Positions 19,432-31,832 of a DNA stretch of 49,125 nucleotides are shown here, one piece after another (positions within the stretch are counted from its first letter, which is position 1; every line of letters begins with the position of its first letter). This DNA is from an uncultured Eubacteriales bacterium (GTDB lineage Bacteria > Bacillota > Clostridia > Oscillospirales > Acutalibacteraceae). The notes beneath the pieces were generated by a model that was not told the origin of the DNA, ran no database searches, and saw only the letters and a list, made by a program, of their open reading frames with translations. Both the position numbers and the translations under genes were made by a program. The stretch lies in contig OMWP01000018.1 in the NCBI GenBank assembly GCA_900314795.1, positions 1 through 49,125 of the forward strand, in the 5' to 3' direction.

Positions 19432-19503
19432 GGCAAAGACGCTTTGGATATCCAAGGCGTCTTTGCCTTCATGTATTATATGACTCAGCGCGTCATTTGT
19501 CAA
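19432..19503 (-). promoter_or_regulatory. Promoter and ANTAR-type antitermination leader of purF-carAB
   Basis: On the minus strand, TTGACA (19503-19498), a 17-base spacer and TATAAT (19480-19475) are followed by the small hairpin AGGC-AAAGAC-GCCU (19468-19455; hexaloop with A1 and G4). The same bases form the 5' arm of the terminator stem (19467-19432), which ends in CCTATTTTT. The two folds exclude each other. Antitermination by the ANTAR proteins is inferred from the shared design in this window. Confidence 0.75.
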
Positions 19504-19506
19504 GAA

Positions 19507-19537
19507 CAGACCCCGAAGAAATGATCCTCGGGGTCTG
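19507..19537 (-). terminator. Terminator after amt
   Basis: A 10-bp stem, CAGACCCCGA and its complement, with an 11-base loop and a short U-rich run on the minus strand. It lies between the amt stop (19629) and the purF promoter. A second inverted pair, GGGAGCCG/CGGCTCCC, flanks 19546-19620. Confidence 0.55.
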
Positions 19538-19628
19538 TGACTTAAGGGAGCCGCTCAGAAAAAGGCAACGCTGTTGAGAGTTATTATCCGGTATTTTGAA
19601 GGGAACGGTTTCGGCTCCCGTAAATCCT

Positions 19629-21356
19629 TTATTCTACATCCTGCAGGGCGGCGTAGCCCTCTTCACCGGTGCGGACCTTGACCACGTTATCTACGTTGTA
19701 AACAAAGATCTTGCCGTCACCGATGTGTCCGGTATAGAGCGCCTTCTTCGCCGCTTCGATCACATCGCGGACAGGGATCGCGGATACGACCATCTCGACC
19801 TGGATCTTTGGCAGCAGGTTGGTATCGACCAAAACGCCACGATAATATTCGGGCTTGCCCTTCTGCGAGCCGTAGCCCATGACATGGGTGACGGTCATGC
19901 CGGTGATACCGAGCTGAGCCATCGCTCTCTTGAGCTTTTCAAACCGGGCTTCCTTACAGATGATCTCGATCTTTGTGAACTTGCTGTCACCCTTTTCAAA
20001 TGTGGGAACGGTCTTGACCTCGACCGCCTCGGCAACGGGGGTATCGCCGAGTACGACGGTGACGTCTTCACCGTAAACACTATAGTCCTCAGCAGTAGCC
20101 GCAAAGCCTGCGTAGGCTGACGGCAGACCGTGCTCGGTGATGTCGAGACCCACGATCTCTTCCTCAGCGGAAGCGCGGAGTCCGACGGTCTTCTTGATGA
20201 TCTTAAAGGTAATGATCATCATAACCGCCGCATAAGCGGCAACAGAAACAAAGCCTAAGAGCTGGATGCCGAGCTGTGTAAAGTCGCCGGTATAGAACAG
20301 ACCGGAAAGTCCCGCGGGAGCATCGGGATTAGCGAGCAGACCGACGGCAATGGTGCCCCAGATGCCGTTTGCCATATGCACGCCTACCGCGCCGACGGGG
20401 TCGTCAACATGGAACTTCATGTCGAGAACTTCGACGAAAACAACGACCAGGATACCGGATACGATGCCGACGACGGTCGAACCGATCGCGTCGAGCGCGT
20501 CACAGCCTGCCGTGATGCCGACCAAGCCGGCAAGAGAAGCGTTCAGACACATCGAGACGTCGGGCTTGCCGTTCTTGATCCAGGTGAACGCCATCGTGAC
20601 GCAGGTGGCGACCGCAGGAGCGATCGTGGTGGTCAGGAAGATAGAGGCGAGCTCGCTCGGCGTTGTCGCCGCCGCGCCGTTGAAGCCGTACCAGCCCAGC
20701 CACAGGATGAAGACGCCTAAGGCGCCGATGACGATATTATGACCCGGGAACGCGTTGACCTTGACGACCTTACCGTTCTCGTCACGCTCATATTTACCAA
20801 GACGGGGTCCTAAGATGACCGCGCCTACCAAAGCCGCTATACCGCCTACCATGTGGATTGCGCAGGAGCCTGCGTAGTCGTGAAAACCAAGCTGGGAAAG
20901 CCAGCCGCCGCCCCAGATCCAGTGCGCTTCGATCGGGTAGATGAACAGGGAGATCACACCCGAATAGATACAGTAGGCTGAGAACTTAGTACGCTCTGCC
21001 ATAGCTCCCGAAACGATAGTCGCCGTGGTAGCGCAGAAAACGAGGTTGAATACGAAGGTGGAAGCGGCGGTGAAATCGCCGTTCGCGGGGGATGCGATGA
21101 ACTCCTTGAAGTGGGCGAACAGATCCATGTTAGGGATACCGATCAGGCCGAATAAGGTATCCTCACCCATCATGATGGTATAGCCCAACAGGGCGAATAC
21201 CACGGTACCGATACAAAAATCCATCAGGTTCTTCATGATGATGTTGCCGGCGTTCTTCGCCCGGGTGAAGCCCGCTTCTACCATCGCAAAGCCTGCCTGC
21301 ATCCAGAATACCAATGCGGCTCCTATCAGGAACCAAAATTCTACTGTCATAAACAT
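19629..21356 (-). CDS. amt: Ammonium transporter fused to a PII (GlnK-like) signalling domain
   Basis: 575 residues. The ATG at 21356 is chosen because GGAAGG stands 7 bases upstream; the longer frame starts inside the leader hairpin. Residues about 1-400 form an Amt channel with many hydrophobic helices, starting FWFLIGAALVFWMQAGFAMV, with HMVGGIAALVGA and GVHMANGIWG. After a linker, the last about 110 residues are a PII domain: IEIICKEARFEKLKRAM, a T-loop with EYYRG (the modifiable Tyr is present), and GHIGDGKIFV. PII proteins sense 2-oxoglutarate and ATP/ADP and gate Amt; here sensor and channel are one chain. It lies downstream of glnN with its own leader hairpin. Confidence 0.93.
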   Translation of the reverse strand: MFMTVEFWFLIGAALVFWMQAGFAMVEAGFTRAKNAGNIIMKNLMDFCIGTVVFALLGYTIMMGEDTLFGLIGIPNMDLFAHFKEFIASPANGDFTAASTFVFNLVFCATTATIVSGAMAERTKFSAYCIYSGVISLFIYPIEAHWIWGGGWLSQLGFHDYAGSCAIHMVGGIAALVGAVILGPRLGKYERDENGKVVKVNAFPGHNIVIGALGVFILWLGWYGFNGAAATTPSELASIFLTTTIAPAVATCVTMAFTWIKNGKPDVSMCLNASLAGLVGITAGCDALDAIGSTVVGIVSGILVVVFVEVLDMKFHVDDPVGAVGVHMANGIWGTIAVGLLANPDAPAGLSGLFYTGDFTQLGIQLLGFVSVAAYAAVMMIITFKIIKKTVGLRASAEEEIVGLDITEHGLPSAYAGFAATAEDYSVYGEDVTVVLGDTPVAEAVEVKTVPTFEKGDSKFTKIEIICKEARFEKLKRAMAQLGITGMTVTHVMGYGSQKGKPEYYRGVLVDTNLLPKIQVEMVVSAIPVRDVIEAAKKALYTGHIGDGKIFVYNVDNVVKVRTGEEGYAALQDVE

Positions 21357-21382
21357 AAAATCACCTTCCAAATATGAAATGA

Positions 21383-21417
21383 GGCGTACCCCGCAAAAGC
21401 AGAGTACGCCGTTGTAC
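21383..21417 (-). promoter_or_regulatory. Intercistronic ANTAR-type leader of amt
   Basis: Between glnN and amt, the minus-strand RNA can fold GUAC-AACGGC-GUAC (21417-21404; hexaloop A1, G4), or a 12-bp terminator-like stem, GGCGUACUCUGC/GCGGGGUACGCC (21410-21383). No promoter is seen here, so it would act on read-through from glnN. The U-tract is weak, so this is the least certain of the set. Confidence 0.55.
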
Positions 21418-21472
21418 ATTGTCAATCAGCTAAGAAGTTCATATTTCTTCTTTCTTAGTTCTTATTTCTAAC

Positions 21473-31398: not shown

Positions 31399-31436
31399 AT
31401 TACCGCACTCCTTGTGTTAGAGATACTGACAAAATA

Positions 31437-31485
31437 AAAAAGGCGACACTTAGGACGTAGAATCCTAAATGAACGCCATTGTTCA
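31437..31485 (-). promoter_or_regulatory. Second (gene-proximal) ANTAR-type leader of GSI copy 2
   Basis: Minus-strand RNA UGAAC-AAUGGC-GUUCA (31485-31470; hexaloop A1, G4), or a terminator stem GGCG...UUUAGGA/UCCUAA...CGCC (31478-31441) followed by TTTTTTATTTT. It lies 40 bases before the gene, after a palindromic repeat that separates it from the first leader. Confidence 0.7.
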
Positions 31486-31494
31486 TAACATAAT

Positions 31495-31544
31495 CGGTTG
31501 AGATTGCCACGGGCTGACACGCGTGTCGAGCCCTCGCAATGACT
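31495..31544. repeat. Dispersed palindromic repeat (copy between the tandem leaders)
   Basis: It starts CGGTTGAGATTGCCACGG and ends CTCGCAATGACT, with a central palindrome GACACGCGTGTC. The same ends flank different centres at 37752-37800 and 45607-45654, the pattern of REP-like elements. Confidence 0.75.
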
Positions 31545-31555
31545 ATAAAAAATAA

Positions 31556-31645
31556 AAAAGCGCCATTTGGAGCAGTACAGAATACTGCCTCAAATGAACG
31601 CCTTTGTTCCGCTAACACTTTAACATAATTATTTTTTTATGTCAA
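31556..31645 (-). promoter_or_regulatory. Promoter and first ANTAR-type leader of GSI copy 2
   Basis: Minus strand TTGACA (31645-31640), 17 bases, TAAAGT (31622-31617). P1 is GAAC-AAAGGC-GUUC (31609-31596). The competing terminator uses the same 5' arm and ends with GGCGCTTTTTT (about 31556). Confidence 0.75.
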
Positions 31646-31746
31646 TCCCTCATTTTGAGCGAGCCCGAACTTTTCACATTTTGCAAGAAAAGAAAGGCAA
31701 TCCTGCAAAATCAATTAGTAAGATTTGTTAAAATTCGTTCTATCGC

Positions 31747-31832
31747 TTGACAAACGAATGATTTGGGCGTATAATTCGTGCTGTTGAGACAAAGGCGTCT
31801 CGGACACATAGTCCGAGGTGCCTTTATTTTTT
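31747..31832 (+). promoter_or_regulatory. Promoter and ANTAR-type leader of gdhA
   Basis: TTGACA (31747-31752), 17 bases, TATAAT (31770-31775). P1 is GAGAC-AAAGGC-GUCUC (31786-31801), and the apical stem CGGAC/GUCCG has a five-base loop, ACAUA. The competing terminator starts at AAAGGCG (31791) and ends in GTGCCTTTATTTTTTTG. Confidence 0.75.

Follow-up and report, generated by a model that had tools for sequence, protein, structure and literature searches.

How can a set of nitrogen-assimilation genes be governed by ANTAR antiterminators if each leader RNA offers a single hexaloop and the regulators have lost their phosphorylation site? The locus that raises this question lies on contig OMWP01000018.1 (assembly GCA_900314795.1) of an uncultured Eubacteriales bacterium of the Acutalibacteraceae, of which the analyzed stretch, positions 1 to 49,125, is called the window. 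It encodes two ANTAR proteins, ANTAR1 and ANTAR2, and two type I glutamine synthetases (GSI) that look catalytically dead, and it contains eight candidate leaders belonging to purF-carA-carB, an ammonium transporter gene (amt), glnN, ANTAR1, an 'orphan' RNA, the operon of the second GSI and ANTAR2 (two modules), and gdhA. We read the locus as an ANTAR antitermination regulon with single-hexaloop leaders, of the NitR kind by its setting, in which a degenerate glutamine synthetase (pseudo-GS) is the likeliest sensor, and assign this reading a probability of roughly 0.7. The regulon type is already known; what is new is the single-hexaloop build, the pseudo-GS lineage, and a putatively gated small RNA (sRNA).

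All eight window leaders carry a hexaloop with A at position 1 and G at position 4 (A1/G4) on a short stem overlapping a terminator, which is weak in the case of amt. A sequence-only reading of the window had listed these eight hairpins, and a scan for six-base loops on a stem of 4 bp or more that overlaps a terminator recovered every one, with the loop AAAGGC five times and AAAGAC, AACGGC, and AATGGC once each. Counting AANGRC loops that lie within terminators gives 11 for the window, whereas 60 dinucleotide shuffles made in 1-kb blocks gave 0.32 on average and never more than 2. The 11 matches are made up of the eight leaders, two reverse-strand mirrors (purF and glnN), and an AATGAC match at 47894 on the minus strand that was set aside as unrelated. 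The looser loop ANNGNN is unspecific by itself, with 32 matches where shuffles average 11.1 and reach 17 at most, and AANGRC was adopted for this reason. A scan with a stricter stem was discarded because it missed gdhA, ANTAR1, and the second module of the GSI copy 2 operon. Rfam returned no leader match at gathering score.

The purF-carA-carB leader (19426..19503, minus strand) has its -35 box at 19503, its -10 box ending at 19475, and a terminator reaching to about 19430; its hairpin at 19469-19454 presents the loop AAAGAC (19464-19459) on a 5-bp stem. The glnN leader (23594..23677, minus strand) consists of a promoter at 23677-23649, a hairpin at 23638-23623 with AAAGGC from 23633 on a 5-bp stem, and a terminator at 23637-23594. 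On the plus strand, the ANTAR1 leader (23732..23818) has its promoter at 23732-23760, a 6-bp hairpin at 23768-23785 with AAAGGC from 23774, and a terminator at 23774-23814. The 'orphan' leader (27246..27330, plus strand) follows the same plan, with the promoter at 27246-27274, AAAGGC at 27290-27295 on 5 bp, and the terminator at 27290-27329, as does the gdhA leader (31747..31830, plus strand) with its promoter at 31747-31775, AAAGGC at 31791-31796 on 5 bp, and terminator at 31791-31825. The pseudo-GS 2/ANTAR2 operon has a double leader on the minus strand. Its first module (31555..31645) contains a promoter at 31645-31617, AAAGGC at 31605-31600 on a 4-bp stem, and a terminator, and the second (31440..31486) has AATGGC at 31480-31475 on a 6-bp stem. 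Six leaders had been placed behind TTGACA-N17 promoters, and these were found again, five at 12/12 consensus and that of GSI copy 2 at 10/12. When folded alone, without protein, 5/5 window leaders formed the terminator.

The amt leader (21382..21417, minus strand; loop AACGGC at 21413-21408, 4-bp stem) is the weakest of the eight. It has no promoter of its own and its U-tract, TCATATTT, is poor, so its terminator is doubtful; the claim that each hexaloop lies inside an intrinsic terminator stood for the hairpins the scan recovered, with this reservation for amt. The ammonium transporter in the window (19629-21425) carries a fused PII domain.

The same build is widespread in relatives, for which 44 loci from a scan of genome contigs and 40 further stretches from same-family genomes were used. 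One or more AANGRC hairpins lying within a terminator were listed for 35/44 loci and 33/40 same-family stretches, some of these being chance matches within genes, and the leader build was also seen in Sedimentibacter saalensis, Fusibacter paucivorans, and Christensenella hongkongensis (loci L068, L071, and L076). In a sample drawn without regard to the stem, namely every AANGRC beginning 4-36 nt downstream of a promoter that matches 10/12 or better, 89/148 sites have a stem of 4 bp or more, compared with 200/6839 AANGRC sites elsewhere that served as control. The 59 stemless sites are in part cases in which the stem itself was read as loop, or chance promoters in genes. Dereplication to one site per promoter and below 80% identity left 108 sites, 66 of them with a stem of at least 4 bp. 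Among these 66 leaders the closing pair is C-G without exception, followed by G-U, A-U, or G-C, and a terminator is present in 65. The distance from the -10 box to the start of the hairpin is 5-12 nt in 58 of them; the other 8 have 13-22 nt. Having a stem was the condition for choosing the 66, which biases their percentage of pairing. Covariation was scored over 43 of the 63 distinct 22-nt stretches. Covariation of the small stem, whose absence had been named as grounds for rejecting the idea, was seen in these homologous leaders: four of the six stem pairs have compensatory changes on both sides, and the stem covariation score is 0.681 versus 0.305 for shuffled and at most 0.184 for slid versions. 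Counts of pairs and pair types over the same 43 leaders gave no excess over shuffles. Tandem leaders with a hexaloop and a terminator in each module were noted in L107 (16647/16731), L110 (9982/10071), L113 (11398/11479), L114 (17442/17503), and L118 (-3133/-3076), a build like that of the pseudo-GS 2 operon leader in the window.

The genes behind these leaders are those of nitrogen assimilation. In the window they include glnN (21473..23566, minus strand), whose product is a type III glutamine synthetase (GSIII) and likely the working enzyme, with catalytic Glu residues read in relatives' copies, gdhA for NADP glutamate dehydrogenase (31877..33223, plus strand), and purF, carA, and carB (13681..19395, minus strand). 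Of the 66 leaders, 60 lead directly into a gene that serves nitrogen metabolism, uses glutamine, or encodes the regulator (six assigned by eye). The full tally over the 66 is glnN 18, the large subunit of glutamate synthase 18, a pseudo-GSI/ANTAR operon 11, gdhA 6, purF 4, CTP synthase 2, ANTAR 1, sRNA 1, and others 3, with none found in 2. The gdhA targets were recognized by eye from the N-terminus, as were by eye the asnA-, transporter-, and AAA-like targets. In the window scan, the glutamate synthase gene of the window itself (37828-42357) is not preceded by any leader of this type.

The 43 leaders served to build a covariance model of the hairpin, a step that the sequence-only reading had proposed for the eight leaders. 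The best matches of this model in the bacterium's own genome fall in the window, six of whose leaders were part of the model. The first pass scored 150 of 1886 candidates. Among the matches listed, the top seven are all in the window (six leaders and one mirror), and 9 of 17 at E <=5 fall there, including 7/8 leaders; the amt leader is not among them. None of the eight listed matches elsewhere in the genome has a promoter of at least 10/12, the best being one on contig 24 with a 9/12 promoter and a weak terminator. Across 149 family genomes, the mean number of model matches (E <=0.3, unfiltered for promoters) was 2.67 in the 72 with an ANTAR2-like match at E <1e-10 and 1.18 in the 77 without (Mann-Whitney p 5e-7), where unlisted genomes were scored as zero and shared ancestry was ignored. 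This association is conservative because some of the genomes counted as 'without' do have an ANTAR domain by Pfam (5/22 tested).

The only ANTAR domains in the whole 2.53-Mb genome (99.75% complete), of which the window is contig 17, are the two in the window, according to a PF03861 search in which they scored 51.3 and 47.8 bits against a curated cut-off of 27.3. The earlier suggestion that these two proteins control all eight leaders is favored by this, by the leader model, and by the relatives, and as a reading of sequence it appears sound except for amt, the weakest case. ANTAR1 (23864..24448, plus strand) and ANTAR2 (29565..30146, minus strand, directly behind pseudo-GS 2) are 55% identical, and each is made up of a pseudo-receiver and an ANTAR domain. 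The closest named records to ANTAR2, up to 98% identical, come from metagenome-assembled Ruminococcus, Ruminococcaceae, and Clostridia genomes. In both window proteins the phosphoacceptor Asp of the receiver is replaced by Asn and the usual acidic pair is also gone, so neither has the EutV-type receiver. This holds widely: of 84 homologous open reading frames (ORFs) collected, 83 cover the site, with Asn in 82 and Asp in 1, a count that takes in near-copies and the window's own ANTAR genes. In L051 (3594-4192) the ANTAR2 gene is broken into two overlapping ORFs, possibly by an assembly error.

An AlphaFold2 model of ANTAR2 (pLDDT, the predicted local confidence, 90.6) contains the receiver, long helix, and ANTAR fold, and its full-length structural matches are Rv1626 with the best E-value, RNA-bound EutV with a template-modeling (TM) score of 0.79, and AmiR with TM 0.62-0.65. 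The RNA contacts of EutV (PMC8934654) were transferred through a profile alignment, and invariance was judged over 27 sequences. Lys149, Glu160, and Met172 are invariant, both window proteins have a basic residue at Lys143 and at Lys147, and Tyr164 corresponds to an invariant His, which AmiR has as well.

Next to the ANTAR genes are the genes for pseudo-GS 1 (25931..27139, minus strand, 402 aa) and pseudo-GS 2 (30187..31398, minus strand, 403 aa). Both proteins have the GSI fold, and in both two metal ligands (E131Q and E357Q), the flap Glu (E327K), and two arginines (R344F and R355C) are replaced, so that they look catalytically dead as far as sequence can predict. Pseudo-GS 2 scores 258 bits versus the NCBIfam GlnA cut-off of 429 bits, a scan that did not take in the control GSIs. 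A GSI ORF lies directly upstream of the ANTAR ORF in 77/91 cases, and the flap Glu327 is retained in 11/77 of these linked GSIs compared with 13/13 unlinked ones, which include one from a genome (G071) with a different ANTAR by Pfam. N264 was dropped as a candidate lost residue because only 2 of the 13 unlinked controls have N there, against 10 with A and 1 with C. In the tree, the 62 linked GSI rows fall together on one side of a branch supported at 100/99. By sequence, the GSI/ANTAR pairing is a single old group, and the linked GSIs form one clade in which catalytic residues were lost stepwise. Where unsaturated, the ratio of nonsynonymous to synonymous change (dN/dS) is 0.03-0.19, and both window copies are under purifying selection.

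These features suggest a mechanism. Transcription would start at, or a few bases from, the short AANGRC-loop hairpin. If the regulator is absent, the loop and 3' arm, which overlap the terminator in the leaders, would be drawn into it and transcription would stop after about 45 nt; binding of an ANTAR1/ANTAR2 dimer to the hairpin, we infer, would let RNA polymerase pass. Signaling by phosphorylation is improbable because the receiver lacks its Asp. As the ANTAR-linked GSIs have lost catalytic residues and the ANTAR receivers their Asp, the signal is most likely to come from the pseudo-GS encoded just upstream, which may bind glutamine, or a different signal of nitrogen status, and accordingly hold back or free the ANTAR protein, in the manner of AmiC with AmiR. 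The sensor proteins AmiC and NasS have a periplasmic-binding-protein fold, unlike the presumed sensor here, which has a glutamine synthetase fold and a putative contact with ANTAR. What the AmiC-AmiR (PMC8934654) and NasS-NasT (PMC3795266) systems would share with it is an ANTAR protein governed by a separate ligand-binding protein, and AmiR also has a pseudo-receiver and the same His as the window ANTARs. The predicted outputs are glnN, gdhA, purF-carAB, the pseudo-GS/ANTAR operon, ANTAR1, perhaps amt, and an sRNA of about 240 nt. Positive feedback is predicted because ANTAR1 and the pseudo-GS 2/ANTAR2 operon themselves sit behind leaders, and a steeper response because the leader of that operon is double.

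Alternatively, the regulon may be real and its signal may arrive by another route, such as the Amt-fused PII domain or a histidine kinase, with the GSIs being divergent active ligases that merely share an operon. The Amt-PII fusion does lie within the locus, and most linked GSIs outside the window's clade retain all six metal ligands, in addition to the few that keep the flap Glu. We nevertheless consider this unlikely, given the receivers without the Asp and acidic pair, the five replaced residues and low GlnA score of the window GSIs, and the old common origin of the GSI/ANTAR pairing, even though ANTAR1 has no GSI upstream of it.

A second concern is whether the leaders are of the dual-hexaloop kind after all, the second hairpin being either the apical loop of the terminator or the hexaloop of a second tandem module. 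The loop ACAGAA at the apex of the glnN terminator does have A1 and G4, and some leaders are tandem. The sequence-only reading had taken this glnN loop for a second hexaloop hairpin, which it is not, as it belongs to the terminator itself; its doubt about a second hairpin in the other leaders was well placed. A second A1/G4 hexaloop occurs downstream in 8/66 leaders when 5.8 are expected, which is near chance, and 0/66 have one upstream, in the interval from the -10 box to the stem. The 66 leaders as a set lack the arrangement of two hairpins joined by a 5-12 nt linker, and each tandem module has its own terminator, whereas in the described systems both hairpins precede a complete terminator, with the second overlapping its 5' arm (PMC3369931). 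A dual-hexaloop reading is improbable on these grounds. Very improbable is the idea that the motif amounts to nothing more than strong terminators sharing AAAGGCG...CGCCTTT with the small hairpin as by-product: pairing of AAAGGC with GCCTTT explains part of the loop sequence, and leaders folded alone do give the terminator, but the 5' arm of the small stem, which most terminators do not need, covaries with the 3' arm, A1, G4, and the closing C-G fit the ANTAR rules, and the sites lie right behind promoters of nitrogen genes.

Several observations weigh against the single-hexaloop, pseudo-GS-sensed regulon that we prefer. The stem is missing in 42/108 dereplicated promoter-linked sites, and the pairing of the other 66 is partly a matter of selection. 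Leader-like sites with promoter and terminator occur in L139 (genome G004) and L148 (genome G147, 75% complete) without an ANTAR match. Several RNA contacts of EutV are altered: Ile stands in place of Arg142 and an invariant Glu in place of Arg168; Arg177 is changed, as is Arg175, where the two window proteins have Gly and the family consensus is Arg; and Asn173 is Asp in ANTAR2, with ANTAR1 retaining Asn. Glu327 is still present in ten linked GSI rows of the tree, so the GSI/ANTAR pair did not begin with a dead enzyme, and a GSI is missing upstream of ANTAR1, the L081 ANTAR, and the Christensenella ANTAR. Among the genomes searched, the sRNA turned up in none beyond the window's close relatives. 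Finally, Enterococcus requires both hexaloops in vivo and a longer linker kills antitermination (PMC3369931, PMC8934654), so a single hexaloop might not suffice.

The 'orphan' leader had been taken for an orphan RNA, a label that can be abandoned, as the leader runs into a conserved body at 27396-27523 (plus strand) with a strong terminator of its own at 27490-27523. I read this body, on its conservation and fold, as a candidate small RNA that would be made only once the first terminator is passed. It is kept in 10 relatives with a mean column identity of 92%, while the stretch between leader and body is variable, and it folds better than shuffles (z -3.95). The body contains CUCCCCUUU, which could pair with a Shine-Dalgarno sequence; in the predicted fold CUCCCCUUU pairs with GGGGAG. 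A BLAST search of 150 family genomes gave nothing convincing beyond the own genome (best E 4.6e-4 over 46 bases), and a covariance model of the sRNA found the own genome only in the same set, which did not include same-genus genomes with two ANTARs. No Rfam family matched above chance, RsaE/RoxS (RF01820) reaching 17.2 bits against a gathering score of 79. Terminator-like stems with similar GGGGTCTG arms are present at 19507-19537, upstream of the purF promoter, and at 27490-27520, at the end of the sRNA.

The dual-hexaloop motif was defined by Ramesh 2012, who found many nitrogen regulons with it (PMC3369931), and an actinobacterial ANTAR survey likewise deals with dual stem-loops (PMC8164766). 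Walshe 2022 cut the minimal binding unit of EutV down to one hexaloop, with two still needed for antitermination, and the Discussion of that paper called for bioinformatic evidence of single-hexaloop sites (PMC8934654). The window system resembles EutV/eut of Enterococcus faecalis in its receiver and long helix, A1/G4 hexaloop, closing C-G and A-U pairs, and mutually exclusive hairpin and terminator. It differs in having one hexaloop at the extreme 5' end of the transcript, a pseudo-receiver without the Asp, and an ANTAR domain with His at the place of Tyr164 and Glu at that of Arg168. In Clostridium saccharobutylicum, NitR is reported to be an ANTAR antiterminator that induces glutamine synthetase and glutamate synthase genes on nitrogen limitation (PMC6316151). 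The likeness to NitR, in nitrogen-assimilation targets and an ANTAR antiterminator, is one of gene setting only; here, unlike there, catalytic residues are missing from the linked GSI, and a GSIII is present. In C. thermocellum, the ANTAR gene Clo1313_2030 is numbered beside Clo1313_2031, an annotated glutamine synthetase (PMC4676874). Glutamine synthetase also signals nitrogen excess to GlnR and TnrA in Bacillus, with glutamine synthetase and GlnR in one operon; in that case the enzyme is active, under feedback inhibition, and works on regulators that bind DNA, whereas here a degenerate one lies beside an RNA-binding antiterminator (PMC9249791). A literature search at the level of titles and abstract starts, confined to best matches and few subscription journals, found no description of single-hexaloop leaders in these bacteria or of a glutamine synthetase pseudoenzyme as ANTAR sensor.

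The leaders form a natural, widespread set with one hexaloop each, and since they show only one, the sufficiency of a single hexaloop becomes directly testable; if it holds, the second hairpin, thought obligatory, would be dispensable for ANTAR antitermination. The pseudo-GS/ANTAR pair suggests a way in which NitR-like ANTARs could sense nitrogen, and the linked GSIs provide an evolutionary series from an apparently intact glutamine synthetase to a dead one. The targets are genes central to nitrogen assimilation in rumen and gut bacteria. The fullest version, in which the pseudo-GS is a dedicated nitrogen sensor contacting ANTAR, single 5'-end hexaloops suffice, and one clade gates a nitrogen sRNA, remains tentative, and we give it slightly less than an even chance.

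Apart from the regulon, positions 45975-48772 of the window contain a tRNA and, after it, a short terminator formed by an inverted repeat, a gene for a large serine recombinase, and one that is ParB-like, and resemble a mobile element beside a tRNA.

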